Assembly: GCF_036711975.1 (NCBI RefSeq)
Contig: NC_091970.1
Location: forward strand, 4,595,501-4,659,500
Source: Onthophagus taurus
Taxonomy: Eukaryota; Arthropoda; Insecta; Coleoptera; Scarabaeidae
Direction: 5' to 3'
Length of the DNA stretch: 64,000 nt
Of the stretch, positions 3,141 to 26,400 are shown piece after piece (position 1 is the first letter of the stretch; each line of letters opens with the position of its first letter). A model generated the notes under the pieces. The model did no database searches. It was not told where the DNA came from and saw only the letters and a program-made list of their open reading frames with translations. The translations under genes and the position numbers were made by a program.

Positions 3141-3249
3141 ATGTCAGACGGTGTTGTCTCGGGGGCCGTTAAATTCTACGAAAATCTTTCTACCAAGATC
3201 ATCAATCATCTTGAGCAAAGACGACGAGTTACAGATAAAATAATGGCAG
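3141..3249 (+). CDS. Possible first coding exon, unknown protein
   Basis: ATG at 3141 opens 36 codons of mixed composition, beginning MSDGVVSG and ending DKIMA. It is followed by a plausible donor CAG|GTGAATAC, leaving phase 1. GC content and codon use are more gene-like than the flanks. No family was recognised. The next exon is uncertain: the open segment at 4837-5000 is phase-compatible, but the join is only an inference. It could also be chance or part of a 5' region. Confidence 0.3.
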
Positions 3250-4836
3250 GTGAATACGTATACATAACGTACGATGCGCGTTCTTCCTTCTCCGACACCA
3301 ACACCGTGGTGTAAAAGCCATCCTTTTTTAAACCAAACGAAAAATGAGATCGAACTCGAGGAGGTGAAAAAGGATTTCTCGGAAGGATCCGGTACAACAA
3401 AACGGTGCTAATTAATGCGAACGGTGACATTTTTCGAATTCGGCTCTTTCTTACTGTTTAAAATACCGAGAAATGAAAAGAACTTGATTTAAAAAAAATT
3501 TAAATAAAAAAGCGCCATTTTTGGGGGAAATTTTAGTTTTTTTTCTGTGATTTTATTTCTTATTTTAAATTTTAAAAATAATAATTAACTTTATTTATTA
3601 ACTAATTTTATTGAAACGATCTCAACATGATATCAAAAGCTTCACAGCACAAAGATATCGAACCTTTCCTTTTTTCTCCAACAAAAGCTGTCTTATTACG
3701 TTACACAAAGGACTCCGCAACGGAAAGTCTAAAAAGGATTTTAAAGGAGCTTAAAAAAACGTAAACAATTTCGCTATTATGTTGCGAAAATGATTACTTG
3801 AACGAGTTCCTAAAGAAATCTCCCTCCGAGACATCCATTACACGTTACTTGATAAATTGAAAACGAGTGATTTCAAACTTATATAAGTAGAAATAATTTT
3901 TGGATTTTCTAAAAAAAAAGAATCAATAAAAGAGTTTTGAGAGGTTCCGAGAAAAACGGTTTCACGTTTATAAATCAAAAGCAATTACAATTCGTTCTCG
4001 ACGGGACGGCGGCCCCAAAAAGGATTGCTTTGCGAGGTGGTAACCTTTTTTTGTTGCCGTTGCGTGTGTCGTCGCTTCGTTGTTGCGTTATTTACCGATT
4101 CTCTTCTCGAAAATAAACCGTTTCCGAGTAGTACTTGAATCCTTTCAGATTAACATTTTCTTAGAATTAATTTCGACGGGTATTAACTATATCAACAATA
4201 AATTGATAATAAAGTAGATCCTTTGTCGGCTATGAGATCTTTTGTTAATTTAAATCGATATTATTTTAATAAATAAACATAACTTAAAAAAAATTGTTTT
4301 ATTTGGTACCTAATTAAATGAAGTTTTGATACTTACGTGTATTAATTTAACGGGAAATTACGATTGTAATCGCTGAAATAAGTTATAAATAATTAAGAAA
4401 AATAAATGTTTATAAAATTAGGTTGACTAAAATGTGTCAACCTTATGCAAATATGCGACATAAAAAATAATAACATTAAAATTAAGTGTAAAGTTATGAT
4501 TTAATGTATGATTATTATAAATAAATTAATGAGTGTGATTTAAATGTGTATTATAATTAAAATAACAAAATAAAATAAATTAATAAATTAAAATATTTCT
4601 TTTAGTTTTATTAATTTTATCGTTTTAATGTTAGTAATTATAAAAAAAGAATGACAAGTAACCTCATAATTCCTCCAATCAAATAATATTTAATAAAAAT
4701 AAGTTTTTTTTGTGAATGAATTGGAATTAATTAATATTTCATAGAACCACAACAATGAGTGAAATTGAAGTTAATGAATGAGGAAAAGCACGAAACGCCC
4801 ACACGTAACCGTACACCACGTTTAAAACCAATTTAG

Positions 4837-5000
4837 ATCGTCCGATTATAAAACTGGACTTCGTGAAATTCTCTTCCTATTACCGACACAACTACAACGG
4901 CAGCTGGGTTGTTTTACAACTAGATCTCCAGGAAGTGCGCTATATTCGTGAATTGGTTGGCGTTAAATTTACCGAGAACGCCGTTGAGAATTTTAAATGA
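4837..5000 (+). CDS. Possible terminal exon, unknown protein
   Basis: After a plausible acceptor (AATTTAG|ATCG) the sequence is open for 53 codons to TGA 4998-5000. Residues include KLDFVKFSSYY, SWVVLQLDLQEV and ELVGVKFTENAVE, with CTG/GTG/AAC/GGC codons unlike the AT-rich surroundings. There is no ATG in the frame, so it would need an upstream exon in phase 1, which the exon at 3141-3249 provides. No domain was recognised. Confidence 0.25.
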
Positions 5001-6020
5001 AAATGCCAACGCGATTCGTTCATTCATTGAGGAAATCGAACGCAAAAAGAATTCTTCGAATCGAATTAAGTCGGAAAAATGGAATTAATATAATTAATAA
5101 TGTGTTAAATATCTTGGACGCATCTTGATTGTAGCCCAGGTGTTGAAACGTTTCCCTTTAAATATGGTGGAAATGAATTCCCGGAAGGTTTACTCCCCGT
5201 CGATTTGAGTTAACGTTAACGCCCCTTTCAAAACTAAGTTTCAAAACCGGAGAATTGAATCTCTCGGAAATTTACATAGAATTAAATAAGAATTAATGAT
5301 CCTTAACTAATTATTGAAGTAAATATAAAAATAAGGCGAATTTGGAATCTAGTTAATTAATAATACGTGGAAATTTGATTAAAAGCGATTATTGTAAGGG
5401 TTGGGTTGTTTTTTTAAAACTTAACCGGTTGTTAGATGGAGGTAGAAACGCTGACTCAATGTCTGGTAATCTCACCTTCTAAGAAAAGATCTCGATTAAG
5501 ATATAGGAGAAGAAAAAAGCAATTAAAAAGAGTTAATAATGAATAATTAAAGATTATTTTTAATTTTTTTTTTTAATTAACCCCAATATTAAATAATAAA
5601 ATCTAAATAATAAAGCGCCATCTATCATTTAATAGCTGAATTAAAATAATTTTTACGGAATATTTTTAGGTTATATTTATTCCAAATAAAATTTTATTTA
5701 AATATTAATACGAATAATTACATTATTTATATTTAATTAACTCCAAAAATTCGTTTTAATTTATTTTATTATTTTTAGGTTAAGTAATTATTGATTTGCC
5801 TCCCCCCTCAAAATTGATTTTTTCCAATGACTCGCCTGTTTTCTCAATAACTCCTTCAAAACCATATTTATCTAACGATTAACACCATCTCCTAAGCCTA
5901 TTCGTGTCTCCAAACCATTTTACGCTCCCCCACAATCATAGTATTAAGTAAAAACTTACATTTGAGTCACACCAACTATATTGACCACTTCTTCAAGTTT
6001 TCCATCTAAAAGTGATTAAA
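5001..6020. other. Spacer upstream of the amidase gene
   Basis: AT-rich. It contains a 36-residue ATG-started ORF at 5436-5546 (ends in a run rich in Lys/Arg, SKKRSRLRYRRRKKQLKR), which has no other support, and a CTCF-like core at 5615-5624. The amidase promoter should lie in the last few hundred bases; no clear TATA box was found. Confidence 0.5.
5615..5625 (-). promoter_or_regulatory. CTCF-like core (AGATGGCGC)
   Basis: GCGCCATCTAT here reads ATAGATGGCGC on the minus strand, the core shared by about ten sites in the window. Confidence 0.4.
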
Positions 6021-7614
6021 ATGGGTTTAATTTATCGTGTTTACGCCTTGATTTGCACAATAATCGATCATTTAATCTATTGCGGATTTGGATTATACTT
6101 TAATTCAAAAAGAAAGTATATACCGAGTGTAAGCAATAAAATTTTATTGGAAAGTGCCACATCATTAGCTTTGAAAATAAGAAATAAAGAAATTAAATCG
6201 TTTTACGTCGTAGAATCGTTTATAAATCGAATTAAAGAGGTTAATCCAATCTTAAACGCGGTTGTAGATGAGCGATTTAATGAAGCTTTGAAGGAAGCGA
6301 AAAGAATCGATGAGAATATAGCTAATGGGGCCATTTCCCAAGAAGAATTTAATAAAAAACCTTTTTTGGGGGTCCCTTTTACGACAAAAGAAACGACTGC
6401 TTGTGAAGGATTGAGTTGGAGCTTTGGAATTATTTGCCGGAGACATATTAAATCAACTTTTGATGCAACAATTATAGAATTGATTAAAAATTCCGGTGGG
6501 ATTCTATTGGCAGTTACAAATGTGCCCCAATTAAATTTATGGACCGAAACTTACAATCCCATTTACGGAGTTACAAATAACCCGTATAACACAACCAAAA
6601 ACGTCGGTGGTTCCTCTGGAGGTGAAGCGAGCTTAATCGCAGCTTGTGGATCACCTTTCGGGTTAGGAACGGATATCGCGGGGTCAATTAGAATCCCGTG
6701 TTTTAGATGTGGCATTTTTGGGCATAAAACTTCCTCAGATATCATCACAACGAAAGGATTAACGTTTCGGGAAGGAACGGAAGGTCCCACAATGGTTGTA
6801 TCTGGCCCAATGACGAAACACGCGCAAGATTTACTTCCTTTATTAAAAGTTTTAGTTGGAAAAAGCGATAAACTCTCGTTAGACGTTAAGGTTGAGATGA
6901 AAAAAATTAAAATTTTTTATATTAGTGAAATCGAAAGTTTTCTTTCGAGCCCAATCGGCCTCGAAATTAAATATGCTATTAAAAGGTACGTTTTCGATTA
7001 ATTTAATTAAATAATTATGTAATTTTTGTTATAGGTGTGTGCAACATTTTGAGGAAATTTGTGAAAAGAAACCGGAAGAGATCGAGTTAAAAAATTTAGA
7101 ATGTGGCTTTAAATTGTGGTCGTATATGATGACGAAAGAAAAATCTGACTTTAAATCGGATATAATGAACCGTAAAGACGAAGCGTTTTGGTTAGGCGAA
7201 CTTTTCAAATACTTTTTGGGCAAATCGAAATTTAATTTTTACACGATTATGAATTTAATCAACGGGAAATTACCAAAACCTAAACCAGAATGGGGCGAAA
7301 AAGTTTTAAACGATTTAAAACAAAATCTTATCGCTCTATTAGGGACTAATAGCGTCCTTTTATTTCCTTCGGAAGCCTTTGCTGCGAATTATCATTACAC
7401 TTCAACATTGAGGCCGTACAACATAACCCATTATGCTCTTTGGAGCGCGTTGAAATTCCCTGTGACTCAAGTACCATTAGGATTAAACGCGGAAGGGATG
7501 CCAATTGGGGTTCAAGTTGTTGGGGCACCATATCAAGATCATTTAACGATTGCGGTTGCTGTCGAATTAGAAAAAGTTTTTGGAGGTTATGTGGCGCCAT
7601 TTCAAATAAATTAA
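6021..7614 (+). CDS. FAAH2: Fatty-acid amide hydrolase 2-like amidase
   Basis: Two exons, 6021-6985 and 7035-7614, are split by a 49 bp intron (AAAAG|GTACGT ... TTATAG|G, phase 2) and encode about 514 residues, the usual family length. ATG 6021 is preferred to GTG 6012. An N-terminal hydrophobic stretch (about residues 5-25) suggests a membrane anchor. The amidase-signature Ser-Ser-Lys triad is intact: Lys123 in PFTTKET, Ser198 in VGGSSGGEAS and nucleophile Ser222 in GTDIAGSIRIP, with the family's typical spacing of 75 and 24 residues. Such enzymes hydrolyse fatty-acid amides such as anandamide-type lipids. The C-terminal PxGLNAEGMPIGVQVVG motif is typical. The stop codon is 18 bp from the stop of the convergent receptor gene, so the 3' UTRs must overlap. 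Confidence 0.93.
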
Positions 7615-7632
7615 ATTGTTTTTATTACTATT

Positions 7633-9696
7633 TTATTTATTATAAGTTTTTAATTCATAAATAAAAATAATTGTTGCTAAAATTATTCCGACGAGCCAAA
7701 GTGCGAAAGCTCCTTCTAAGTGGGTTAACCCCAATTTAGTTTTAACATGTTTTGGGGTGTGTAGGGTTAAGCGTACCATGTTTTGGAGGTTCATATCAGA
7801 AGTTCTTACGGTGACCTGAAAGAAGTTTGGGTTTAATTAATTAAGTGATTGAAATTTTTAGGTTAACTTTGTATTCCCAGATATAAAACAACCCCGCTTG
7901 GGCTATCTCCAATATTAATCGATCGATTTTCGGCAATAAGATGGAATTTTTCCTCAGAATCATCGCGCAATGCTCCCAATCAACATCTTCTTCCATTAAG
8001 CGACGTTTTTGGATACCTTCCTTCGTGATGTATTTCCCAATTGCTAAACAACCTTAAAAGTTAACGGAGAAATTTTTATTTTTAGACTAAATTATTGAAT
8101 TATACCCCCGTATAATCGTTCAACGGCAAATCCGTAATTTTCATCGTTGCTTTTAACTAACTCTTCATGATTTAGAGCTAGAAAGTTGTTCACTAATTTT
8201 TTGTAGGTTGGCTAAAAAGTAATTAATTAATTAAGGGGATGAATAAAACTTGGTTAAGTTACGTTTGGGTCATCGAATAATGCAGAAACCCACGCGATTG
8301 AGGTTGCGCCCCATTTTAAATCACGATTTGCTAAATCTTCAGCGTTTTGGATTAACCCTTTGTATCTACAACACAAATGTCAATTTTACGTTTAGTTTTT
8401 GTTGCGAACTTAATTTTTTTTTAATTAATTTATTTATTGAAATAATTAACTGATTAATTTACCTAGGAACAGTCATATTACTAGCTAATTCAGTGCTATA
8501 TAAAAGCGCCACATAAAAACTTAATAATAACACTAAAACGAAGATACTTCTTGCTTTAATCGGAACCTTCGAAAGACCTTGCAACAAGAAAACTGCTTGA
8601 GTTAACATGAATGATTGGATTAAGTATTCTCTTTTATCTAATTTAGTTAAATCTTCTTTTCTAGAATAAAAATTTGTTATGGTGTTTGAGAAAAAGTTTA
8701 TTTTTACAGTTTGTCGAAGATGATTGCGATGAAAATTGCTAAAATTGAGACTAAAAATGAAAAGAAAGTGATGATCCACATTTCGAAGGAGAAAGAGATG
8801 AAGGGGGTTATCCACCCCCCAATTTCACTCGGGGCTGGGGCTAAACATGTAATTCCTGACCGTAAAGCTGGTTTGGTGATGTCAAAGAAGTAATATGAAC
8901 GCTCCCAAATGTATAAAGCCCCTAATCCGATGTCTCCTCGATCAATCGCAAGGTTTCCCAGCACCCCAAACCCCGTCCAATTATCGTAAACTTCCCCCCA
9001 TTCCCCTTTCTCATCCACAATAAAAATTGGGGTTAAATTATATCTTTTAGCGAATTCTAAGCAAAATAAAACTTCTGTTCCATCATAATTAGCTAAAAAC
9101 TAATTATGTATTAATTTCTAATTTAAAAATAAGACTAAACCTGGTATTGAGTATGGGGCGTAAGTAAAAGTAGCCAATTTAAGGTGTTTCCCCATTTGAT
9201 TCGCTAATTTATCCCAAAACAAAAGATTTTGGTGCAAAAACGAATTGTTTCCTCCAAACCATCGATCGATTTCGATTATTTCTTTGCTACTGTTCCCAAA
9301 TCCCACAAATTGATGGGTGTAAACCCCGAAAACATCCTCCAATTCCAATTTTTTAATAAAAACGACATCGGTCACAAAATCCAAACACTCCGACTCGAAA
9401 AAATCGCCAAATTCCTCCGATACGATTAAATATCGCCTCGAATTGAATCGATCCAAATTTAAACGGATCAAGAATTCTAAGTTTTCAAACGCTGTGCGGG
9501 GGGATTCGCTAAAAATTAAGATTCCCTGGCATCCGAAATGATTAAAAATTATTTCCTCTTCACCAATTGTTACGGTTACAACCGGTAAAGTTCCGTTATA
9601 AACGAATTCGGTGTTATTTAAGATTATTAAACAATTTGTGTTGGTAAAATAAGTTTTTAAAATAATGTTAAGCAATAAATTTAAATTGAAAAACAT
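7633..9696 (-). CDS. Divergent ionotropic chemoreceptor (IR family)
   Basis: Seven exons (9141-9696, 8708-9092, 8463-8660, 8263-8365, 8106-8211, 7868-8052, 7633-7815) join in frame to 571 residues. An N-terminal signal-like hydrophobic segment precedes a ligand-binding lobe containing TYAPYSIPANYDGTEV, WGEVYDNWTGFGVLG and ITKPALRSGITCL. Next come TM1 (WIITFFSFLVSILAIFIAIIF), a pore region (LTQAVFLLQGLSKVP), TM2 with STELASNMTVP (counterpart of the SYTAxLAxxLT motif), the second ligand lobe, TM3 (ALWLVGIILATIIFIYEL) and a short tail. This is the ionotropic glutamate receptor fold as used by insect chemosensory, thermo- and hygrosensory IRs. The subfamily was not assigned with confidence. AATAAA overlaps the stop codon on this strand. 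Introns are 46-60 bp apart from a few about 100 bp. Confidence 0.88.
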
Positions 9697-9966
9697 TTTT
9701 ATTTAACTTAAGATGATCAGAGGCTTATATATCTTTATTTCCCTTACAAATTTGTTTGTATTTGCTCTACAACATTAAAATGATCAAAGAATTTTCCGCT
9801 TTTAATAAAAATTTAAAAAGTAATTTGAGATTGTAAACGTCAAAAATGACGTTTAATCGAGTTAACCTCAAATATGACATTTAATTAATTTAACCTAAAA
9901 AAAAAATAATTTTTAATAAACTCAAAATAATTTATTAAAAAATTCACAAAAAAAAATGTTATTTGA
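9697..9966. other. Spacer between receptor promoter and PSMD6 3' end
   Basis: This short AT-rich stretch serves as the promoter side of the receptor (minus strand) and the 3' flank of PSMD6. It contains the near-palindrome ACGTCAAAAATGACGTTT at 9837-9854. Confidence 0.5.
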
Positions 9967-11295
9967 TTAAATATTAATAACTCGCGATAATTTTTGGACG
10001 CGCTGTAATAATAAATCGCCTTGTTTTATTACAGAATTGAATTGGGCGTTCTTTAAATCGGGCCGATTAGTTTCAACGATGCCTCCGACGCGATCAATTT
10101 TGCAGTGTAATCTTCCTGAGGCGATAAATGTTGATAATTCCCTGAAAATAAATTAGAATAACGAAAAGTTTTGAGATATTTATGATATAGTTACTGATCG
10201 ACGAAATCTTGTGATACATCGAAAGCTTCTGCCATGTATTGGAGAGTTAATGATCGATATGATTCTAAAAGTTGGGTGTAGGCTAAAATGCGCATCTCTC
10301 GGACGTAATAACGGTAATGGGGGTGAAGTAGATAATCTTTACGGAGAATTTCTTCAACTTTAGCTGAAAAAAATTAATTCAATTAATAAATTACTTAAAT
10401 AAATTAAAATTAGTTACCTAAATTAATAAAGAATTCAGCATATTGGCAATTATACAAAGAAAAAAGGTAATCTTTAACAAATGGCTCTGAATGCAACACT
10501 TCCAAAATTTCCGATCCTTTTACAACCTTATCTCTCAATTGATTCCTTGGTAAGCTAATAATGCAGACGTAAACGGTGTACCTCACAAATGCTTTATAAT
10601 CCATCAACTCGTACGAAGTAAATGTACTGACAGTCTCCAAAAATAAATTCGCAGCGTTTTTAAAGTCCCTCACCGACATGCAATAAACTCCTTGATAAAC
10701 TTTTAATCGATTTCTACGATCCCAATCGCCCCCCTCCTCGATTAAAGCCTTCGCTTTATCGATATTCCTAGTAATGATGTCATGGTCCATAAAGAACAAC
10801 CCAATTCGTATCATATAAAAAATAATATCAAGCCGGTGTCCCAAAGAAACCGTTTTATCATAAGCTTGACGAAACGTTGATATCGCATTCTCTTTGTCGC
10901 CGATTTTGCAGTAATACTCAGCTTTGCGTAGATACGCGTCTCTCACTTCCATTTCAGAGAGATTTTTTTCGGCGTCCTCAATCGTTTCGTTTAGCTTTAC
11001 AATTTGTTCTTCATTACGGGTTTGCATTTGCTTTAGAAATGCTTGATCTAATTTCCAACCCGCGTCTTTGCAAACTAGTTCGTACCAAGGTGCCATATCT
11101 ATAAGAATTAAATTAATAAGTGATTAACTAATTAAAATGAAGGGACTCACCGTCCTTTTTGATGGCTTCGGAGATTTTTGTGTGAACATTTCTATCGGAG
11201 CGATATTCCGGGAGAGTTAAAAGAAATTTGTATTGGGCCAGCTCCAAATTTGGGGTCTTTTCTAACCCTTGGTCTTCTAAATTTTCTAGCGGCAT
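9967..11295 (-). CDS. PSMD6: 26S proteasome non-ATPase regulatory subunit 6 (Rpn7)
   Basis: Four exons (11151-11295, 10418-11098, 10195-10363, 9967-10141) give exactly 389 residues, the standard length for this subunit. The protein starts MPLENLEDQ, followed by [16 protein letters not shown] and [14 protein letters not shown], all hallmarks of Rpn7. A TPR-like helical array fills the middle and a PCI domain the last third (from about residue 230, including [13 protein letters not shown] and [14 protein letters not shown]). Rpn7 is a lid subunit of the 19S regulatory particle, acting in nucleus and cytosol. Introns are 52-55 bp. All phases close, and no residue or exon appears to be missing. 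Confidence 0.97.
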
Positions 11296-14200
11296 TCTTA
11301 TTTGTGTTTTGATGCGAAATAAACCGACAAAGCAAACGAATTTGACGATTCACTCTTAGTTACAAAACTGTCAATCTAGGGGAAAATTAAGATTCTTTTT
11401 TTTTTGGTTGTTTATTAATAATTCGATTTTCGTTAATTCTAATTTAAATTAATTAATTTATTCAAATAAATAGTAATTTTATCATTAAAATGTGGATTTA
11501 GTAATAACTACAAACAAAGATTTAAATTGTTATTTAAAACTGAAGTTGGTTACGGATTTGAGACAAACAAATTTAAACATAACCTCAATTTTTATTTATT
11601 AATTTCAATATAACAATAAACGTTTTTTTAAAAACTTAATTTTAATTATTTATATTTTGGGTTTAAAATAACAATCAAAATCGTAACTTAATTCAAATTT
11701 AGACGAAATAAGTGAGAAAATTTTTATTTTTATAGTTGGTGTTAAAGAAGTTGCCTACATCTTACATCAACAATAAAATAGTTAAATATAGACTTAAATA
11801 ATAAAATAGTAATAATTAATGCTGTTTTGATAGATAACGTCGTTTCAAAACAGGAAATCGATTCAAACTCATCTCCTAAAAAACGTTGTTTATTTAAACA
11901 CAAAGTATTATTATCACAATGAGTTGTTTTTCGATTATGGTAATTTATTTTTAGCACTTTATATCTAAAAAAAAGATCAAACGATACTCGGGGACGTTGT
12001 TGTAGGTTAGGCTAAAGATAAAATTCGTCAAAGTAAGCATGAAGAGATTAATCTCAATTAATTTTTTGTATCAATTCGTTTTTGAGTGTATAGATATTCA
12101 AGAGGTGTGTGAGAGTGACGTTATTCCATTAATGCTTATTTTTCGTCTGGAGATTAAAAAAATTAATCGAAAACACGCTTCAAAAATAAAATCGGCGATT
12201 CAAAGAGGGTTGAATAATTTAAATTTAAGGCGATGACTCACCAAGCTGCTTTTGCTATTTTAGAAAAGTCTCTGACCTCTCCTTTCCGATTCAAGGCGCT
12301 TACCAAGCGACGCAGAGATAATTGTGTGCAAAATACTACACACACAAAGTAGTTGTACATTTTTATTTCATTTTAATTTCAAGGTGAACCCAGAAAACGA
12401 TTATTTTAATACAATGGGTTCAATTTTTATTGATATTCAAGAGGGTTACACCGGAAAAGCATTTTAAACCGAATTCAAGGTGAAACTTAATAATTAAATC
12501 ATCAAACGTTAACGTTTCACAAACGTCAAATTTGTTTGTACCGAAACCCTGTGATTGGTCGAATTAAACAAAGCGTCAATTTAATTTAAAAATTATTTTA
12601 ATATTATTTAATTTAAATAAAGTGTTAATGAAAGTCGTTGGGGATTAAAATTAAGGTGTGACGCGCAATAAAAAATATTACGTTCGATTCGATTACGTAA
12701 ATTGAATTTCATTTTCATTTTTAATTACCCGCGCGTAATATTATTTCTACGATTGCGTCTAATGATTGTATTTAATCGATATATTTAATAACTGCACTTA
12801 ATTAATCGTGTATTAATAACAATTATTTAAATGTTTATTAAATTTAAAAAGCGGAAGTCGAATCACAAGGAGTTTCGATACAAACAAATCTGACGTTTAT
12901 GTCAATTTTTAGCTTTCATAAAAATCATTTACAATTTTTACCCAATTAATGCGTTAAATGGTTTTAAACTAAAAACGTTGAAATTTATACATTATTTTGA
13001 AAAATCTAACAAATCAAAATCGGGTAAGCATTAAATTAAATTAATAACCGGAAGTTGATGTCCATCTTTTTAATTCGACCAATCACGGAGAGTCTTGATA
13101 CAAACAAATTTGACGTTTATAAAACGTCAAACTTTTTAAGCGTCCTCGCAAATAATTTAATTTCTTTAATTTTTAGCCGATATATGAAGTTATTTGGTTA
13201 TATTTTTCACATTACTCGGGGTTTTAACGATAAATCTAATCTAAAAATTGTGTTAGTATTAAATTAAATATTATTTTTTTTCCGTCATAATTTTTCCAGG
13301 AGAATTTAAAACATTTATTAAAAATAAACTTCGTCCCCGGATGCTTGGGATTATTACTGCAAAAAAGGAGATGTTTACGTAATAGAAAATACCGTTTTAA
13401 GAAAATAAACGGGTTCGCGACGAACCTATTTTCTTTTACAACGTGGATGATTACGTGACTTAAACAAACAACGTTATAGTTGTTGTCGTCGCCATCGAAG
13501 ACGTTTCGAAAACGAAATCGAAACCGCTCTTGGATAATTTTGCGTAACGCAGGATGTTCCATTCTTTTTAAGGCTTAAAACCGTTCTAAACCGAAATTGA
13601 ACCAAGAAAAGGTATCCTTTTTTGTTTAATTTAGTTTCTAAATCACGCAAAAAACGGTTTGAAGGTCGAAGAAAGTAAATTTTAGGTCCCGTTTTCACCT
13701 CTCAAGAGAAAGAGAGATAAAATCTCCTTTCACATAAGCATATTTTTTTTTGAATAAAAGTAGTTTGGCGAAATTATATCGCGAACTTTCTCCGGAGCCC
13801 AAGAAAGACTTGAAATCGACTCGTTTACGCAACGTTTTTTTTTCTTTGAGGGGAATTTCTTGACCTCAGCCTTATTTCGAACTTTCTTTAGAAATAACCA
13901 AGAAATGACGTCATTTTTAAAGTGATTCATGGAGAGTTATTTATAATTTTAATCTAATTTAACCTAATTTTTCTGCTTTAATTAGGTGATTAAAGAATCG
14001 TTAGAAGATGAGTTCGATTAGGCCGTTTTTGGGGCGTTTTTGTTGGGTTAACCTTGAAGAAATGCAAACTCGGCTATCTACTCGGTGTTATCATTGCGAA
14101 AAAAAGAGTCAAAGCAAAACAATAACAAAGAACGCCTCTTCTTTTGTGCGTTTTTTCATGGACGAACTTAAATAAAAAGAAAGAGTAAAAAAGAATCAGT

Positions 14201-17200
14201 TGTGTGAACAAAACTGGTCGAGGAGATTCGTTTTAGTTAATATTAAACGAATCTTGTTGAGTTTAGTTTTTTTTGGTAAGTTGGAAGCGTTACGCAATAT
14301 TTATTGTGTATTACCACGTTTTGAAGTTTGATTCGCCTTTTTCGCAACTCAATCGATAAATTAACGACACGCGGCGTTTCTATAGAGTTTTTCTGATAGC
14401 GCAATCACAAGATGCGTCACAAGTTGTTGTTTTGACTACTATACCTCGGTTAATTAATTAAATAAAAATTGGAACGGAATTAACACAAAAAAGAGAATTA
14501 AATTTGAAACCTTTTTCTTATCTTTTAAATAAACCCGTTTTATTGTTTGTTTTGTATAAGATACAGTGAACTGGCGGTATGTTTTATTCATTTATTCCTT
14601 TATAAATAATAGTAAATAAGAATTAGTAGGAAATTGAGAAAAACATGTTGCTCGTGGCTTATGTTGAAAAACAAACCAATAAATAAAAAATTTTTGCAAC
14701 ATTTTCAGACAAAGAAATGTTTTATTTCGTTATTTTTTTAAAAATTATTTGAAATATTAGATAACGACATAAAGAACAATAGGAATTACTTGATACCAAT
14801 AGGTTTTTTTCAACAATTGTTTAAAAACGACACAATGTGATAATTTGAAGGATATCAAAAAAAAAAAACTTATCGAAAATGTAATCAATAAAATCGATTC
14901 CTATTTAACGCTTTTAAAAAAATATTGAAATCTCGTTTTGTGGGCAGACGACAAAAACAATTTTAAAATACCTTAATATTTGGTTATTTTATAGGGGTAT
15001 TGTTTCTCGGATTGCATCATTCTTATTTTTCTGAAGTTATTTTTAAATAATTTAAAATTTGATAAAAATAAATGTTAAAAACATTAACGTCAAATGAAAC
15101 GTCAAAAATGAAATGTGTCTGTTGCTAATTTCATGCTATTTACATCGAAATCGACGCCAATGTGAAGTAGTGACATAACTTCAAAAAAAATTATAAATAG
15201 TTTTAAATAAAATGTGAATTTAAAAATGGGTGTGGTTAATACGAAAATTATTAGAATTGATGGGATTATTTCGGAAAAAATTAAATTAATTATGAAGTTG
15301 ATAAGATTGGATGAAAAAATTAAATGTGAATGATTTTTTGGATGGAAAAAATCCAAAACTATTGAGATAATTACTAAAATAATCAATTGAAAGTCGCGAA
15401 ATAATCAGTTAAAAAATGAAATTGAGGTTAAAAAGCCATCAAGATCTAATTAGAAACATTGAAATAGTATCGTCAAAAATCTATTAATAGAGATATCAAG
15501 AATAATTAAGGTACCAATTCTAACGCCTCGGCCGCAAGCAACCTCTGTTTAATTAAATGATATGATACTCTTTTTTAATTCTTTTTTTTTTAAACATTTA
15601 TATAATTATACTATTTTAAACATTTTAACGAAATAAAAATTAATTTATAAAGAAAATTTTCATACAAAAAAAATATTTACGCGTTTAATTAAAAACAACA
15701 AACCTCAAGGTGAAAAAAAATCACCCATCATCAATTCAAAGTGTTTTAAAATAAAAAAAAATACGTTTTAAATTAACTATAATTAGAACCGGTGATATTC
15801 GAAACTATTTTAAGTAATAATCAATTCAGATAGTTGTTTTCGTAGACTGTTTTCTTGTTAAATACGGTTACTGAATAATAAGTTAAAACATTTTTGAGAT
15901 AACACTTTTTCAGTAAACACTTTTAAAATAACTTTTTTTTCGAATTGCTGCGTGATTCAAGGAGGGTTAAAAAACTGACATTGTAACACTTTAAAGACTT
16001 GAACTAACGGTCTACAAACTGGTCAACGACATGCACAATTCCGCATTTACGCGGAAACCGTTCGACCTTCTTTCAAATCGAGACAAGAAAGTCAAGCTTA
16101 AAATCACCTTCCTGGTTGTTCACGGGATTTATTTAAACTATAAAAATTGCATTTCCGTTATTTCTCGTTTCAAATAAATAAATAACGCGTTAATAATAAG
16201 TGGTTTTTTTAATTAAAAAATTATAACCTAAAAATAATTTCATGTTAAATTGTAAACGTCAAAATTTTGAGGTTATAAATTTTTTTTCTTTAACTAAATA
16301 AAACTATGTTGCTTCTTTATCTTTTACTTACTTTTTGGCGTTAGTTCAAGTTGTCTTCAGTCCAAGAAAAACTAAATGTGTCCCGTTTCAAAATTAGAAC
16401 GACGTTGACGTTAAACGAAAATTCGTTTCAATGCACTTTTAATTCTGAAAGTTAAAAAAATTAAATTAATTTTTTCGCATTTAATTAATTTAGTCATTTA
16501 AAATTGCAAAATGTACTTTTTTAAATCCACTTTGTAAAAGATTAGATATCAAATATTGGTAAATAACGTTATTTACATAAATAATTCAATCCAGTACATA
16601 TAAAGACCAGGGAACAAAACAATTAATCAATCATTCCTCGATACACCTTTAAGAAATAATTTTGTGTTTTACGTAGTGATTAAATTGTGATTATTATAAA
16701 CGGAATTCCACAAAGAATTATTGTCGTTTCCTTTTTAATATAATTCCAAGAAAACCCGATGATTCAACGGCTGATAAACCCCGTTAATGATTCCGGGAGT
16801 TTTAACACACGATAATATAACCAATATGATTTCATCAATCGTGTTCAAACCGTTTTCGTCCGCGACAAGTGATATACAAGGTAAATTTTTATTATTTAAG
16901 TTAAATCTAAAAAAAATTAATAAAAACATAACCTCAATTAAAAAGGAAAAAACATAAATACATTTAAATTTAAACTTAATTGTTTTAACCTCGATGATGG
17001 GATTTTCGAAAATCTAATTAGAAGCATCCTCTTGGTTCTTTTCGTCTTGATTTCGTAAGAAAAGTGGGGAAATTATCTCCTTTTCGAGGATTCCACATTA
17101 AACGTCATTTTCACATTTTTAACTGTCACGTATAGGTGGCGTTTAAAACGTTATTCTAACCTTTATAACTTGGCCGGATTTTGCCTTGGAGAAACAGTTC

Positions 17201-17539
17201 GAAAATAACTTCTAAACGTTAAACAAGTAGGAATTCTTTTTTGATTTATTTTCGTAAATTCATTCGCGTTCTTCGCTTTAAATAAGAAAGGAGAAACGCG
17301 TCTTAATAGGATGAATTTAATCGATAAAAATTCAAAAAAACAAATTGTCATTTGTATTTCGCGCCAAATCGAGCCGCCGACAGCACTTTTCGACGAATCG
17401 CGTGCTTTTCAAGAATTAGCGGTGTTGTTCAGAGCGCGATTCGGTTACAGTGTTTACGGTTGATGGGGTGATTCGTTTTTTTTTAGAATTCATCAATTTT
17501 TTCACTTATTAAAGAGAAAAAATATATTTAATAAAAAAG
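11296..17539. other. 6.2 kb gene-poor spacer
   Basis: The promoter of PSMD6 lies at the left edge and that of TBL2 at the right. No recognisable protein family was found on either strand. Notable contents: ACGTCAAA-type palindromes (13105-13130, 15090, 16255); a 55-residue ATG ORF at 14008-14175; TCAGTTGTG, an initiator-like sequence, near 14197, followed by a strong donor (TTTG|GTAAGTTGG) after 14275, which together look like an untranslated first exon; one degraded copy of the GC-rich repeat module near 15534; and CTAGGTGGCG-like motifs further right (17133, 18180). Confidence 0.5.
14008..14175 (+). CDS. Small ORF, unknown
   Basis: ATG in an acceptable context (GAAGATGAGT) opens 55 codons starting MSSIRPFLGRFCW and ending FFMDELK. 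It has two Cys close together (RCYHCEK) and no signal peptide. It lies just upstream of a possible untranslated exon ending at 14275. Without homology support it may be a chance frame. Confidence 0.2.
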   Translation: MSSIRPFLGRFCWVNLEEMQTRLSTRCYHCEKKSQSKTITKNASSFVRFFMDELK

Positions 17540-20500
17540 ATGAGTGAGAACGGTTCGGTCGAGCTGTTATTGCCGTCGTTGGTGGTCGCTGTCGTCGTCG
17601 GGGCCGCGTTTCTTCTATTACGGTACGTTTTAAGTGTCGTGCAAAACGCGAATCCGGACGAGGTACCGAGAAAAATCGAGAAAAGTAAGTTGTCAATTAG
17701 AATTTGACGCGAAATTTAATTAATCGGTCACGTGGCGAACACCTTTTTATTTTAATGTCAATTACAACAGCACACGTGCGAATTGAAGGTTATGTTAATA
17801 ACATAACCTTCAAAAAATTAACCTCCAATTTTGACGTTTTTGACGTTTAATTATAATCTTTTTAATTTTTGATTTACAGATGCTAAGGAAGTTTCTGACC
17901 AAAAGAGACAGTCGCAAACGCATATTGTGTCTAATAAAAAAAAGAAAACCATCGATAATCGTTTGGGGAGGAACGATAAAACTTTTACTGATAAATGGTT
18001 AAAAACTTCCATGAAAGGACACACTGGACAAGTTTTAGATATGGATTATTCCAGCAATGGGAGATTGTTGGCATCGTGTTCAGACGGTTAGTATTAATTA
18101 AATTAATAAAAACAGGGAGGGTTAATTTCGTCCAGGTTAAAATTACAGATTTCTGTAAATAAATTAGAAATTAATCGCTAGGTGGCGAAATATCTTCAAT
18201 TATTCATAATTACATCAGAAAATGTCGTTTAAGATAACGAAATATCTTAGGAATAATTAATAATGACACGAAATAAAAATAAAATGTGGTTAAGTAGCGG
18301 GTTTCTTATCTTATTTTTCTAATAAAACTAGGTTATAAACACTTACACGCAAAAAAACTAAGTAAAAAGATTAAAGGAGAGACTAAAAGTTTCTATTTTT
18401 TAATTCAGAAGATGACTCCGCATCGAAAACTTCAATTTCCACTGACGGAGACAGCAACCTCTCGTCAGAATACCTCGAGGAAGAGGAGGATCAAGAAAAA
18501 AAGCAAGACGTGAAGCCGCAATTAAGTAGAAGACAAAGGAAGAATCGGAAACGCGACGAAAACGCATCCCCGGTCTTGAAGAGCAATAAAGCGAGGGGAA
18601 AAAAGTCGATAGAAAAGAATTTTAAGCACGAACCATCCCTTTTTTATGAAAAACTTGGTGTTCCCGACGTTGATTTGACCTCATTTCTTCATTCATACCT
18701 TTTAAGTACCGAGCAAATGTTAGCGTTGGGTTATCCGATGGATAGTAGCCAAGATCCCGGGAAAGTAATTATTTTTAAGGGGAATATGGGGGGATTTTGG
18801 GGGAAAAACGATAACAATAAAAAGAAAAAAACATTTTTTGATGTTAACGCCAAGGAATTTTACCCGAGGAGTTACACAAAAAAAGAGATCAACGAAGATA
18901 GCGGAAGAGACTCGGGAAATTCGTCCGAGTGCGAAGAAGATGTCAAGAGCAACCCCAAAATCGAAGAAAATTACATTTATAACTCGATTTTAGAGCGGAG
19001 CGAATTAATTTCTATTTATAACAAAAAGGAAGTGAGAAATAACAAAAAAAATTGTTGCCGATGCGGGGACGATTTTTATTTGAACCCGGAAGACTCCGGG
19101 TACATCACCCAAGAGCCTTGCACGTATCATTGGGGAAAATTAACGATGTTTCACCCAACGTCGTTGGGTGTTTTAAAGTATCAGTGTTGCGGCGGTTTCG
19201 AAGGGAGTCAAGGGTGCACGCAGGGTAAATTACACGTTTGGACCGGAATTAATGCGGGTGTAAACGGACCTTTCGATAACTATGTTAAAACGAAACCTCG
19301 AAAAACGACCCCACCCGGTGGGAACACCGGCGCATACGCGATTGATTGCGAAATGTGCTTCACCGTAAAAGGGATGGAGCTGGTTAAAGTGACGGTAATC
19401 GGTTGTGATGGACGTTTAGTGTACGATACATTTGTTAAACCTGAAATGAATGTTGTTGATTATAACAGTCGATTTTCCGGAATTACAGCGAAGGATTTAA
19501 ATAAGAAAAAAAATCCGAAAAGTTTACGGGAAGTCCAAAATGATTTGATGGGGTTTATATTTTCAGATACGATTCTTATCGGGCATGGATTAGAAAATGA
19601 TTTGAGGGTGTTGAAGATTTTGCACCCGACGGTTGTTGATACAGCCGTTGCATTCCCACATCGAAACGGGTTGCCTTATCGTAGATCATTGAAACAGTTA
19701 GCCTCGTGCTTTTTAAAACGAGACATCCAAACTAATTCGGAAGGCCACGATAGCTTCGAGGATGCGAGGGCTTGCATCGATTTGATGTTGATGAGGATCG
19801 GAAGGGATTTCCAATCAATTCTCCAACATTCTTATCAACTCTAATAAAATAAAAAAAGGAAAAAAATGATCTTATTAAAAAAAAGAGTTCCTCATTATCA
19901 ATAGGATTATTTTTTTTATATTTAATCTTAAGAGTGCGTTATTTAAACGGTGGGGTAAACAGCTAAGAATCGAATCTCTCCGGGTTTATTCCTGTTTGCG
20001 TCCGCTTTAAAATAGACTGATGTAGTACAAAATAAAAATACACTTTTGTTACTAGTATTAAAGAAACTTAATTTAATTTGTATCGTTTTTTTATTCGTGA
20101 TACTCTCGAAACGAAGTGCCTTAAATAAAACTCGTTGTAAACTTAAATAAATTGGTTTCTCTTAAATTAATAACCTTGGTTTCAAAATAAAATTGTGTTA
20201 ATCAGAAAAAATTAACACCTCAAAAAGAAAGTTTTTTTGAATAAAATTGGCGCTAATTACTTAAATATAGAGGGAATCGAAGGACTTTTTGATACTAAAG
20301 AGGTGAAGTTTGATGAAGCAAATACATAAAAAACCAAAAACGAAGAGAAAGTAGAAAGTAGAAATTGTTAGATTAAACTTTTTTGTGAAAGCTGATTTAA
20401 AAATTAAGAAACGTCAAAATTGACGTTTAAATTAATTATAACCTCAATCTTTCAAATCGACTAAATAATCCCTTATGATTAATTAAAACGATATTTTAAA

Positions 20501-21753
20501 ACAAATTTGATCTAATCAATTAATTTAATTTTAAATAAATCATTATTTAAATTTTTTAAAAATCTAAATATCAAAAAAATATTTGTTAGAGGTTATATAA
20601 ATCGTGACACAATTAATTTGATTAATTTATTTATTTGTTTCAGATCGAACGGTTATTTTATGGGACATCAAAGATATTAACCAAAAAGACCGAAAATCTC
20701 TCCGAGTCAACATCGAGTTTGATTACCCCACCTTCGTTAAATGGAGCCCCGATAACAAGGCGTTCTTAATAACGAAATACAACGAAAACACAGTTGAGGT
20801 TTATAAATTAGAGAAGAAAAAGGATGGCTGGTTGTCCCAACCGAGTAAAGCGGCGACTTTCGATAAAAATCACAATGAGGACATCATTGCGATGGATATA
20901 GCCCAAAACGGAAAATTCATCATGACGTGCTCCAAAAAGAATCAATTAATAGTTTGGAATTTAAAGGGGCAAATCATGGGGCAAGTCGATACTTATTTAA
21001 TGTACACGAATCAAGCCAAAATCACACCTTGCTCGAAATTTATTGTTTCTTGCGGTAAATTTAAATTTTATGTATGCAACCCAATATACGCCAAGACAAT
21101 TTATTTTTTTTTTTTAGGTTTTGCCCCCGATGTAAAAGTTTGGGAGGTAATTTGTAATAAATCGGGTGAAGTGCAAGATGTGCAAAGAGTTTTTGAGCTT
21201 TGCGGGCATAAATCGGAAGTTTACGACGTTTCTTTCGATACGGATACTTCCCACATAACCTCTATCTCGAAAGATGGAACTTGGAAATTATTCGATACGA
21301 AAAGTAAATGTTGAAGCAATTAAACACCAATTTAATAAATTTATTTATTTTCAAGTTGATTATAAAAAAGGAGAAGATCCCCATTTGAAATCAACGGGGC
21401 AACACAACCATAATGGACCGTCAAAAATAACTTTATCTCCCGATGCCGAGGTCGTTGTGGTCAGCTCGATGAGTTCCTTATATTTTTATTCGAGTAAATC
21501 GGGTGTTTTGGATCGATTGATTGAGAATGTTTACGCTGGTGATGTGACGAATATGTTCTTTGAGCCGGCCGGGAAATTCTTATTTACTTCTGGCGATAAA
21601 CAAGTTAGGGTTTTTCATAACGTTACAGGTTACAAACAAGGAATTTTGACAGCAAAAGAGAAATTAAAAAGCAACCAAACTTCCGCAACCAAAGAACGCT
21701 TGGAAAAATTAATCCAAGATAATCAAAGGATCATCAATGAAATTGAAAATTAA
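17540..21753 (+). CDS. TBL2: Transducin beta-like protein 2 (ER-anchored WD40 protein)
   Basis: Five exons (17540-17684, 17880-18086, 20644-21054, 21118-21303, 21356-21753), all separated by phase-1 introns, encode 448 residues; the human protein is about the same length. An N-terminal segment (about residues 8-30, SVELLLPSLVVAVVVGAAFL) is a signal anchor. A basic linker follows, then WD40 repeats beginning KGHTGQVLDMDYSSNGRLLAS and including LCGHKSEVYDVSF with DGTWKLFD. The C-terminus is a charged helix (TKERLEKLIQDNQRIINEIEN). TBL2 is an ER-membrane protein linked to PERK signalling and the unfolded protein response. Intron 2 is 2557 bp, far longer than the others, and contains the REXO1-like exon in the same orientation. 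Confidence 0.93.
18409..19844 (+). CDS. REXO1: REXO1-like DEDDh 3'-5' RNA exonuclease, exon inside TBL2 intron 2
   Basis: An uninterrupted frame follows an acceptor (TTTAATTCAG|AA) and runs 477 codons to TAA. The order is an acidic Ser-rich start, a basic segment (LSRRQRKNRKR), LTSFLHSYLLSTEQMLALGYP, a Cys/His cluster (CCRCG...CTYHWGK...YQCCGG...GC) and the exonuclease domain. The catalytic residues are present: Asp/Glu in AIDCEM, Asp in GHGLENDL, His/Asp in EGHDSFEDA. RSLKQLA and YDTFVKP are typical of REXO1/GOR. The first in-frame ATG is at 18717, inside the conserved region, so translation must begin in an upstream exon ending in phase 1. Both TBL2 exons 1 and 2 end in phase 1. AATAAA right after the stop suggests its own poly(A) site. 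The nuclease call is firm; the 5' end is inferred. Confidence 0.9.
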
Positions 21754-22475
21754 AAATAAATTTTTTAATACTAATTTTTTGTTGTTGGTTATGCAACCCA
21801 ATTTACACCTTTCTAATTTTAATTTAATTCAATAATATTTTTTTATGATTTCAAATTAATTTCTAATTCATTCTGATAAATAACAATAAAATCATTTGAT
21901 AACAAAATGATAAATAAATTGCTTCGTTTTCTTTTTAGGTCAAAGAAACCAATAATTATTTTTTATTAAATTTATGAATCGATTTATTGTTTTCGCAAGT
22001 GAATGACTCATTTATTCGATTCCGATTAATCGAAACGAACTTGAATCGTTTTTAGTTCTCTTTTTATCGATTGAATGAACGGGTTTCATTATAACGGGAT
22101 TATTTTTAAATTTCCCGCTCGATACGGCGCTGACAACCTAAAGAAAAAGATTAAAGATGGTGCCCAAACCCACTTGATGCTATAATCAAATCGAAAGATT
22201 TTAATTCTTAACCAACTAAAAGTATCAAATACCACCAAATGTGATAAAATCCGTCTTAAATAGCTCATTAATTAGATAACGGGGAAGAGGATGTGCATAT
22301 TTGCGTGGTTTTTGTGACCCCATGAGGAATATATGGATAGAAAATAGTAAACATAGGACCAGGAATCGCAGAATGTGAAAAGAAACTCGGTAATGATTAT
22401 GATTTAACACTAAAACATTTTAATTTAGATTGATTTATGAGGCAAATACTTTTATTTGAAATTTTAGGTTATGCC
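21754..22475. other. Spacer between TBL2 and Ptpmeg
   Basis: AT-rich, with the TBL2 3' UTR on the left. An acceptor-like TTTTAG|GTTATGCC lies just before the Ptpmeg start, so a non-coding upstream exon is possible. Confidence 0.5.
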
Positions 22476-25400
22476 ATGATCGAAAGTGTGTCTCGTAGGG
22501 CGCTTTCAGGGTCTAGTGGAACTTACCACGTGCAAGCTTTAGAACTGGCAGCCGCTAGGGATCGAAAACAGGACGGTTTCGGCGTCGTAGTCCATTTTTT
22601 AGACGACACGGAGCATTGTTTTAACGTCAGCAAACGTTCGAAGGGTTCCGCTTTACTAGACCAAGTTTATCAACATCTCGAATTAATCGAAAAAGATTAT
22701 TTCGGATTAAATTATTACGAAAATGGGGGTTCTAGCAATAATAAACCCGAATATGCTGTAAGTAATTTACTTATTTATTAGATTAAGTAACATAACATTA
22801 AAAATTTCATAAATGTCATTTTTAACATTTCAATTAATGTAAATTTTTTATTAATTATTAAAAAGAAATGGTTAGATCCGTCCAAATCAGTTAAAAAACA
22901 GCTTGGAAATAACCAAACTCATCTATTTTTTCGAGTGAAATTTTATGTATCCGATCCGAGTAAATTACAAGAAGAATATACGAGGTATCAATTTTATCTT
23001 CAAATACGAAGGGATATTTTGGAGGGGCGTCTTCAATTACCGCCGAGTACTGCCATTTTATTAGCTAGTTATATTGTACAATGTAAGTTGAGTCATTCGC
23101 TTATTAAGCAAATTTATTTTTTTTTGTTAATTCATCGAAAAAAATTTTTATAGCTGAATTAGGTGATTATCAACCTGACGAGCATGGCCCCAATTACTTG
23201 TCTAATATGCAATTGGCGCCCAATCAAACGGAAGAGATGGAACGGAGAATATCGGAGCTACATAAACTGTTAAAGTGAGTTGCAAATAATTCTTTTTTTA
23301 ATTTTTAATGTATCGTTTTACTTTTTAGGGGTCAATTACCGGCTGATGCGGAGTTTAATTTCTTGGATCATGCGAAACGATTAGAGATGTATGGAGTTGA
23401 ATTATACAAAGCGAAAGTAATTAATTTAATTAATTCCCTTGCAAATTTTCATTCATTATATTTTTTAAATAGGATAATAGCAGTAAAGATATTCAATTGG
23501 GGGTAACATCGCTTGGATTAGTTGTTTTTCAAAATAATGTACGAATCAACACCTTCTCTTGGTCCAAAATCATGAAAATATCCTTTAAAAGGAAACAATT
23601 TTTCATACAACTTTTACGAGAACTCTCCGAAAATTACGACACCCTCCTCGGGTTTAACATGGAGACTTATCGGGCTTCGAAAACTTTATGGAAATCATGC
23701 GTAGAGCACCACACCTTTTTTAGGTTACATTCTCCTAAAGTTCGGAGAAGATTTCCGTTCTCTCTTGGCTCTAAATTCACTTACTCTGGAAGAACTGAGT
23801 TTCAAACCGTCGAAGATGTTAAGCAGCGGGGAAAACTGGAAAGGAAATTTGTTCGATCCCCCAGCAAAATTTTAGTAAGGATTAAAAATAATTTGTTTGG
23901 TTACTTTTAATAAAAAATTGATTTAGATTAAATCACCCCCACCTCCGATATTAGAAGAAAAGGGGAAAATAGTTCCAGCTCCGGCGCGACCACCACGACT
24001 TTATAACGATAAAATCACCTCAACGGGGCCGAAAGAACCTAGAAAAGCTTGGGAGGATGAATCTTTAATCACTGATGAGTAAGTTTTAAACAAATTAAAG
24101 TATAATGTCAAGAAAATTTGTAACCTCAAAAAGTTTTAAAATTTTAATCTTATCGCAAAAAATAAAGAGCTAACTTTAATATTGTAATGAAAACCTCACC
24201 TTAATGGGGCCGAAACAACACAAAAACGCTTTGTGGTCACTGATGAATAATTTAAATAAAAAGAATTTATAACCTTAAAAAAAGGAATCTATTTTATCGG
24301 CTTTATTGACATTTAATATTTAATTAAAAAAAATTTATTTTTGATGAAAATTTTAATCTTATCTCAAGAAATAAGGAAACTAATTTTAATATTATAATGA
24401 TAACCGTTATCAGAATTAATCTTGCTAAAACACCTGATAAAACATCGATTATAACCGTGTTTTATCACTTTATGACTAAAAAGCTATTCGAATCAACTTC
24501 CTTAATTTCCGAAGGACACAAATGGTGTCACCAATGATTCTAAAATGAGTTTAAAATGTACCACTTATTACGTTCCCAAACGTAAATCTAAAAAGTAAGT
24601 TATTTTTAATTAACTTGAATTAATTTGAGTTAAATTGAATTGAATCGAGCGATTAAAACGTAAGATAAAGTAATGTAATTAGTTATTAGATTGTTGTTGA
24701 GAGTATTGTTCGGAAACGATAACAGATCCAGTAGCTAATGTCGAAAAATTTAATTAGGAATGGTACAACACCTTTTACACCCGGGTTAGCAGCGAAAGTT
24801 TTGAGTTACGTTGATGAGGAGCCCCCTTCTCCCACCCAAAACGGCCTTTACGACACCCCTCCGTACAGTGCAAGTCACTCACCCACTTTACGACCTGAAG
24901 ATGATGATGGCTTAGTTAACGTGGTGTTGTACCCCGATTCAGATGGAAAATATGGGTTTAACGTTAAAGGTAACCTTCAAATAATTTAAATTAACTTTAA
25001 TAAAAATCATCATTGTAGGCGGCGCTACGAAAGACGTCCCAATTTTAATATCAAGAGTTGGTCTAAATACCCCAGCCGATAGATGTAATCCCCGATTAAA
25101 CGAAGGGGATCAACTCCTACAAATAAATGGGCAAGATGTTTCGAATGCTTTACACAGTGTGGTCGTTCAATTAATTCATGAAGCTAGAAATACTGATTCC
25201 GGGAAGTTAGTTTTGACGTTAAAACCGAACGTTCTTTATAATCGCGATGATTACGATGAGAGTTTGCAATATTACATGCCAATTGGGGACATTTTATCTG
25301 GCGAAAACGTTATTTTAACACCGTTAGAACAAAGCATGGTTGAGTTATCCGAGGGGTTAATCACCGGAAGTTTATTAATGGAATACGAGATTTTATACAG

Positions 25401-26400
25401 GAAGCACCCGGATATGACGTGTGATGAAGCAGAAAAGGCTAATAATATCACAAAAAATCGATATCGAGACATATCACCTTGTAAGTATAAAAAAACCTCA
25501 TTTTTTTAAAAAATTTGACACAGAAATACATAAACATAACCTATAAACTAAATTAATTTTTTTTTATTAATGATTTAGATGATGCAACGAGAGTTATATT
25601 AAAAAATACGACTGAAAATGATTATATTAATGCGAATTACGTTAATATGAAGATAAATGGGACTGAAATTATTAATAAATACATTGCGACTCAAGGTCCG
25701 CTTCAATCAACAACGGAAGATTTCTGGAACATGATTTACGAGCAAGATTGCAATTTAATCGTAATGTTAACGACATTAACAGAAAGGGGGCGTCCTAAGT
25801 GCCACAAATATTGGCCTTGTACTGGGGAAAGTATCGGGTTTGAGAATATCTCGATTAAATGTCTTCATGAACAAGAAGATTCAAGCGGAAGTTTTATTTT
25901 TAGAGATTTTATTTTAACAGAAAATATAGTTAGTACTAAAATTAATTTTTTAATGAATTGATTAATTAATAATCAATTTTTAGAGTAAATCGGAGAGGCA
26001 AATTCGTCACATGCAATATGTAGCTTGGCCAGATCATGGAGTCCCAGATTCTCCGATTCAATTCCTCGATTTTACAAACCGCGTGCGAGACGTGCGAAAA
26101 ATTAGCCCCGAATCGGTGATTGTCGTGCATTGTAGCGCGGGAATTGGACGAACGGGGGTTTTGGTTTTGATGGAGACCGCTTTGTGTTTGATGGAAGCGA
26201 GCCAGCCGGTTTTTCCTTTCGAAATTGTTCGGACAATGCGACAGCAACGTGCCATGATGATACAAAATGCTGTAAATTGTAATGTTAGTTTATTAATCCC
26301 TAAATTAACTCGTTAATTGATTTTTTAGAGTCAATATAAATTTGTGTGCGAAAGTGTACGGATGGCTTTTAATCAAAGGGGCTCGGAGGAGACGAAATAA
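22476..26400 (+). CDS. Ptpmeg: Tyrosine-protein phosphatase non-receptor type 4-like (Ptpmeg; FERM-PDZ-PTP)
   Basis: Eleven exons (22476-22757, 22866-23082, 23154-23274, 23329-23416, 23473-23874, 23927-24078, 24758-24969, 25019-25480, 25579-25928, 25984-26271, 26329-26400) give 881 residues. The FERM domain covers about residues 15-330 ([49 protein letters not shown]) with the FERM-adjacent [17 protein letters not shown] domain ([18 protein letters not shown]) follows at about 450-545, then the PTP domain with general acid Asp779 in WPDHGVP, nucleophile Cys812 in [10 protein letters not shown] and the Q-loop region QRAMMIQ. The phosphatase should be active. It acts at the membrane-cytoskeleton cortex; the fly orthologue functions in neurons. 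The exon 7 acceptor was set at 24757|24758 because nearer upstream choices hit stops. Confidence 0.95.
24133..24405 (+). pseudogene. Decayed duplicate of Ptpmeg exon 6 inside intron 6, with duplicated flank
   Basis: Bases 24193-24250 resemble the 3' half of exon 6 and its splice site (ACCTTAATGGGGCCGAAA against ACCTCAACGGGGCCGAAA; GTCACTGATGAATAA against ATCACTGATGAGTAA). The donor is lost and the frame is shortened. The segment just before it (24133-24196) is itself repeated at 24347-24405 (both contain TTTTAATCTTATC and CTAA.TTTAATATT). This is a local duplication that has decayed. Confidence 0.6.

Follow-up and report, generated by a model that had tools for sequence, protein, structure and literature searches.

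How a nuclease exon with no start codon ahead of its 104th codon comes to be translated is the question raised by the 64,000-nt stretch of Onthophagus taurus DNA analysed here (the window). The exon lies within the 2,557-nt second intron of a WD40-repeat gene, on the same strand, and we take this host to be TBL2 from its resemblance to human TBL2 (Table 1). The sequence-only reading had proposed that the two coding units share their 5′ exons. Among several models, the best supported has the nuclease exon serving as an alternative 3′-terminal exon of the TBL2 unit, a reading towards which the sequence inclines us, short of confidence.

Table 1 Features of the TBL2/nuclease locus (window coordinates) and genomic matches to the nuclease
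Feature	Position	Strand	Description
Candidate alternative first exon	16633-16880	+	TATA 16599, Inr-like A 16633, ATGs 16787/16826, phase-1 donor 16880
TBL2 exon 1, coding part	17540-17684	+	145 nt; phase-1 end; donor AAA/GTAAGT; N-terminal membrane anchor
TBL2 exon 2	17880-18086	+	207 nt; phase-1 end; donor ACG/GTTAGT; basic linker and start of first WD repeat
Pyrimidine-rich acceptor tract of nuclease exon	18387-18408	+	AG at 18407-18408
Nuclease exon	18409-19844	+	1,436 nt; 478 codons including split first codon; stop 19842-19844
Two AATAAA, overlapping/after stop	19843-19853 (motifs 19843, 19848)	+	Possible poly(A) signal, weak evidence
TBL2 exon 3	20644-21054	+	Frame and exon reconstruction
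TBL2 exon 4	21118-21303	+	Alternative end 21309 also keeps frame open
TBL2 exon 5 with stop	21356-21753	+	Frame and exon reconstruction
REXO1-like paralogue	C1:25.2 Mb		40% identity in genome search; 949-codon open frame
REXO5-like paralogue	C1:8.75 Mb		38% identity; 632-codon open frame
Weak fourth match	C5		E 6e-5

Host gene and nested nuclease exon

Reconstruction of the host gene from the sequence yields five exons and a 448-aa product. Its first exon encodes a hydrophobic segment (best 19-residue Kyte-Doolittle mean 2.79, from residue 9), and WD40 repeats follow (Pfam 1.4e-28, best stretch from residue 90), so that the model displays the two features looked for in TBL2, an N-terminal membrane segment and then WD40 repeats. 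The introns measure 195, 2557, 63, and 52 nt. All four are in phase 1, and any intron between 17540 and 21753 could therefore accept a phase-1 exon in frame. The gene directly 3′ of TBL2 and on its strand (22434-26316) is Ptpmeg-like by its FERM, PDZ, and tyrosine-phosphatase exons, recognized by eye, and upstream (5985-11123) lie amidase-like (+), ionotropic-receptor-like (-), and proteasome PSMD6-like (-) genes, likewise assigned by eye. Repeats at the locus amount to short matches with no clear meaning.

Read from 18387, the frame of the nuclease stays open up to its stop. The acceptor, TTTTTTAATTCAG followed by AAGATG, sets the exon start at 18409 and gives a phase-1 entry in which one base is owed by the upstream exon. 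In an approximate splice model this site scores 6.28 bits, which places it in the top 0.34% of the window's 2,658 AGs, and no other AG from 18100 to 18716 exceeds 2 bits; the TBL2 acceptors at 17880 and 20644 score 4.93 bits each in the same approximate model. The first in-frame ATG lies at 18717. The sequence-only reading had given this position and phase for the nuclease exon, phase-1 ends for TBL2 exons 1 (17684) and 2 (18086), and no in-frame ATG before 18717, all of which the reading frames bear out.

Codon usage was scored as log-odds trained on this genome's other coding stretches, one TBL2 exon among them, with stops set to -8. Over 18408-18716 the nuclease frame totals +18.7 bits, versus -48.5 and -63.0 in the other two frames. 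The mean per codon in this segment is 0.18 (bins ranging from -0.07 to 0.46), versus 0.16 after 18717, and five 20-codon bins upstream of 18387 fall between -0.56 and -1.81 bits per codon. Because the bias rises near the 18409 acceptor, the codons upstream of the first ATG look translated. Openness by itself is weak proof of coding, since the longest open frames on the two strands of the non-coding interval 11200-16500 reach 76 and 112 codons.

Identity of the nuclease and its relatives

The product of the nuclease exon matches the RNase_T family (Pfam 9e-10), and the solved structure closest to it by sequence is that of Small RNA degrading nuclease 1 (5z9x, 4e-27). The DEDDh catalytic residues are intact: D313/E315 within YAIDCEMCF (310-318), D398 within GHGLENDL (392-399), and H447/D452 in an H447-x4-D452 motif preceded by IQ at 440-441. 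Marks of the Rex3/REXO1 clade, as summarized in PMC12129344, are an Exo I DCEM with Tyr/Phe, an Exo II DL, and an Exo III H-x4-D with an upstream IQ. All are present here, and by these motifs the protein belongs to that clade. Ten Cys/His residues at 216-276, nine of which are identical in the REXO1-like paralogue described below, follow an order judged CHORD-like by eye; the CHORD family is absent from the Pfam matches of both proteins (five at E 1 for the nuclease, one at E 0.1 for the paralogue). In canonical REXO1 the EloA-BP1 Pfam domain spans the KIX region (PMC12129344). Pfam aligns EloA-BP1 with nuclease residues 48-125 at 20.6 bits, below the cut-off of 27, over profile positions 91-163 of 165. 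No match covers the N-terminal half of the EloA-BP1/KIX region, and at profile level the nuclease departs from canonical REXO1 in this respect. The protein thus looks Prage-type, with a DEDDh domain and a CHORD-like pattern and without the N-terminal EloA-BP1 half, a call made from architecture, with CHORD by pattern, rather than from a tree or a comparison with the fly sequence. A basic run at residues 41-45, RRQRK, resembles a nuclear-localization signal.

A search of the genome with the nuclease (290.8 Mb in 33 contigs, the window lying on contig C5) returned four matches, including the nuclease exon itself. The weakest, also on C5, we take by eye for PAN2. The eighth codon of the 949-codon frame is an ATG (MLPTTGFF...), and the frame carries EloA-BP1 in full, scoring 93.1 bits over two stretches of which the best covers profile positions 2-76; because the whole region is present we take this gene for REXO1 itself. 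RNase_T is not among its Pfam matches at E 0.1, so its nuclease part rests on an alignment with the nested nuclease, which gives 38% identity over 258 residues. The label REXO1-like in the sequence-only reading therefore holds at the level of the clade and is here refined to Prage-type, the gene with the full EloA-BP1 region being on another contig. The 632-codon frame, with RNase_T in mid-protein, is labelled REXO5-like. Both paralogues have an ATG within their long open frame, which makes the missing ATG a particular of the nested gene. Origin of the nested exon as a retrocopy of REXO1 found no support: the paralogues are also long single open frames, so that absence of introns does not point to retrocopying, and the nested nuclease is only 38% identical to REXO1. 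Beside the REXO5-like gene, on the minus strand of locus L006 (2601-4004), lie three similar 104-codon open frames with starts 726 and 363 nt apart, probably a tandem repeat. The same locus contains open frames at 8070-9746 that by eye resemble those of a retroelement (gag, protease, and reverse transcriptase).

A conserved region had been claimed to begin before the first ATG. Coding bias suggests translation of that segment; its homology is weak. When nuclease residues 1-103 are aligned with the REXO1-like paralogue, the score is reached by 224 of 500 shuffles. The corresponding counts are 451 for residues 1-75 and 103 for residues 75-103, and only the interval 75-128, which includes residues beyond the ATG, gives a score that few shuffles reach (7/500). 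The sole alignment to this paralogue in the pre-ATG region is the short stretch YLLSTEQMLALGYP, and a motif common to the two proteins, YLLSTEQ/MLALGYP, spans the ATG at 18717.

Where the start codon could come from

As read from the sequence, the nuclease exon needs an upstream, ATG-bearing exon with a phase-1 end. Between 11,200 and 18,408, ATG-opened phase-1 donors of at least 6.7 bits occur at 16880 (7.35), 17684 (8.13), and 18086 (6.72), the last two being those of TBL2 exons 1 and 2. For the donor at 18086 the ATGs lie inside exon 2, which the TBL2 frame opened at 17540 reads through as well. Both joins anticipated by the sequence-only reading are in frame and free of stops, giving 526 aa from exon 1 and 595 aa from exons 1 and 2. 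Its argument from matching phases holds in that both exons fit, but it adds no extra coincidence: all four TBL2 introns are in phase 1, and by our estimate the match raises the odds only about threefold. Retention of intron 2 as a route into the nuclease was rejected, the TBL2 frame stopping at 18089.

A coding first exon within 18087-18408, the arrangement that the sequence-only reading had named as contradicting its proposal, finds no support. The one ATG-opened phase-1 donor there, at 18293 (ATGs 18263 and 18284), is the best available at -0.35 bits, which is not a usable score. Among 100 non-coding control windows of 322 nt, such a donor exceeded 3 bits in 12 and 6.7 bits in none; with 88 of the 100 windows containing no donor above 3 bits, its absence from 18087-18408 is an ordinary non-coding outcome.

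In favor of shared exons, both joins are open, and the codon bias starts at about 18409 although an ATG appears only at codon 104. Polymerase starting at the TBL2 promoter would transcribe exons 1 and 2 and meet the acceptor at 18409 before the exon-3 acceptor at 20644, and the two would compete for the exon-2 donor. Since the nuclease acceptor is the nearer and the stronger (6.28 versus 4.93 bits), some joins of exon 2 to 18409 are expected, and, barring repression of the nuclease exon, some TBL2 transcripts should terminate there. Commitment to this exon and to a poly(A) site behind its stop would produce the 595-aa or 526-aa chimera, in which the N-terminal membrane anchor of TBL2 is joined to a predicted DEDDh 3′-5′ RNA exonuclease; skipping of the exon would produce TBL2. 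The AATAAA noted earlier is present twice and could terminate nuclease-ending transcripts, but it carries little weight where the motif occurs 3.42 times per kb on the + strand and, by our arithmetic, falls within 30 nt of a stop about one time in ten. As a rough prior for sharing we used human same-strand nested genes: of 53 that were re-checked, 22 were classed as alternative exons, 5′ or 3′, belonging to the host (PMC3192792). Fly prage transcripts, as described in PMC4889664, differ at their 5′ ends and have the nuclease end in common, which suggests that in the fly this enzyme tolerates a variable N-terminus.

Because human TBL2 faces the cytosol after its membrane segment, the chimera would be expected on the cytosolic side of the ER: in the human protein the segment is predicted at residues 9-31, residues 32-447 are cytosolic, and PERK binding needs residues 32-74 (PMC4231078). 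Several points count against sharing, among them that the RRQRK run fits membrane tethering oddly and could instead mean nuclear use, and that residues 1-103 on their own show no significant homology to the REXO1-like paralogue. A membrane-tethered enzyme and regulated switching between the two products are plausible, no further. Unlikely, in our judgement, is an extended picture in which one gene makes either TBL2 or, by terminal-exon choice, an ER-anchored exonuclease with the TBL2 membrane segment, the exon-2 form carrying as well the linker that human TBL2 needs for PERK binding; the enzyme could then dock at activated PERK and link stress or egg activation to the removal of nearby mRNAs.

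The proposal of shared 5′ exons thus stands as regards frame and splice compatibility, but the donor at 16880 fits the nuclease exon too. Here the two genes would be interleaved and share no exons: the nuclease would have its own promoter and a first exon at about 16633-16880, TBL2 exons 1 and 2 would lie in its 1,528-nt first intron, and the product would start MIPGVLTHDNITNMISSIV... or MISSIVFK... and have no TBL2 membrane anchor. We consider this arrangement unlikely, and its candidate first exon a serious rival on the sequence. The donor is in phase 1, the two ATGs listed in Table 1 open a frame that continues into the nuclease exon (509 aa from ATG 16787), and the only other such donors of at least 6.7 bits between 11,200 and 18,408 belong to TBL2. 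The TATA/Inr pair ahead of it is the only one found on the window's + strand, and CpG dinucleotides number 10 in 16750-16899 versus 4 and 3 in the neighboring bins. Against these points, 60 Markov sequences contain such pairs at a mean of 0.68 per window and a spacing of 34 nt is the largest that was allowed, the usable ATGs come after one at 16759 that is out of frame, donors of this kind number 21 on the window's + strand, and the donor at 16880 could serve TBL2 exon 2 instead, to which it joins in frame. The interval 16599-16880 could accordingly start either the nuclease or an anchor-less TBL2.

More unlikely still is a longer, separate gene that ends in the nuclease exon and has unrecognized 5′ exons further upstream. 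Fly prage offers the precedent: the gene spans 79.2 kb, of which 96.3% is intron, produces 11 transcripts, and has four other genes in the introns of one of them (PMC7230524). Transcripts of such a gene would need to skip TBL2 exons 1 and 2, and no ATG-opened phase-1 donor of at least 6.7 bits was found in 11.2-16.8 kb.

Transcription from within intron 2, with translation from the ATG at 18717 or from a non-ATG codon and no upstream exon, would dispense with the donor altogether, and we judge it improbable. The ATG at 18717 has an A at -3, and in-frame near-cognate codons precede it at 18510 (GTG) and at 18576 and 18675 (both TTG). However, neither an Inr (TCAKTY) nor a full TATA box was found in 18087-18408, where there is only a loose TATAAA at 18334; out-of-frame ATGs lie ahead at 18412 (33 codons) and 18646 (10 codons); the codons before 18717 carry the same mean bias as those after it; and a start there would cut the YLLS..GYP motif. 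Least probable, and very much so, is that chimeric junctions are splicing noise or premature TBL2 polyadenylation caused by the nested exon, with no functional chimera: human same-strand nested genes do cause exonization and cryptic polyadenylation in their hosts (PMC3192792), but noise alone would not preserve an intact nuclease frame, catalytic residues, and coding bias, so some transcript must make the nuclease.

Comparison with known systems

If TBL2 exons 1 and 2 do feed the nuclease exon, a relative of Prage, which in the fly is needed for maternal mRNA removal, would be tethered to the ER through the anchor of another protein, and nuclease output would depend on the TBL2 promoter and on which terminal exon is chosen. 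Sharing would also explain the start-codon-less exon, which an annotation pipeline could mistake for a TBL2 isoform or a truncated gene. The kind of arrangement is already known. In the open-access literature searched, a locus that pairs a WD40 ER protein with a Prage-type nuclease did not appear among the matches listed, ‘transducin beta-like protein 2’ did not occur together with ‘exonuclease’, and papers naming both TBL2 and REXO1 concern, by their titles, expression profiles. Viral and prokaryote contig collections gave 4 and 121 pattern matches to the nuclease, none confirmed as relatives, and are not informative on insects.

The host gene product matches the layout of human TBL2 as given in PMC4231078, both having a short N-terminus, a membrane segment, a linker, and a WD40 domain. 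Intron 2 of the beetle gene holds a second coding exon on the same strand. With REXO1 and yeast Rex3 the nuclease shares the clade motifs and, through the REXO1-like paralogue, the identity reported above; it differs in that the paralogue has a full EloA-BP1 region and its own ATG and lies on another contig.

Drosophila Prage (prg, CG42666) is a Rex3 variant with CHORD and DEDDh and without KIX, according to PMC12129344. As in the nested nuclease, the DEDDh domain is C-terminal; the CHORD region before it has as its counterpart in the beetle protein a Cys/His pattern judged CHORD-like by eye. The N-terminal EloA-BP1/KIX half was not found in the beetle protein, and another gene of the same genome has EloA-BP1 in full. 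The difference lies in the locus, the fly gene being the 79.2-kb unit with other genes in its introns described above, and the portion of PMC7230524 drawn on mentions no link to TBL2.

For the gene arrangement, IFRG15 lies in intron 2 of TOR1AIP2 on the same strand (PMC3192792). The two loci are alike in having a coding unit on the host strand in intron 2, with host transcripts reaching its neighborhood. That paper lists IFRG15 and TOR1AIP2 as nested gene and host with upstream exonization, not as genes with shared coding exons; the nested nuclease exon lacks a start codon and would be translated as part of a chimera. In the cholinergic locus (ChAT/VAChT), one gene is nested in another and the common 5′ exon is non-coding. 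The TBL2/nuclease locus would share with it a gene within a gene and a common 5′ exon, but here the shared exon would encode a membrane anchor.
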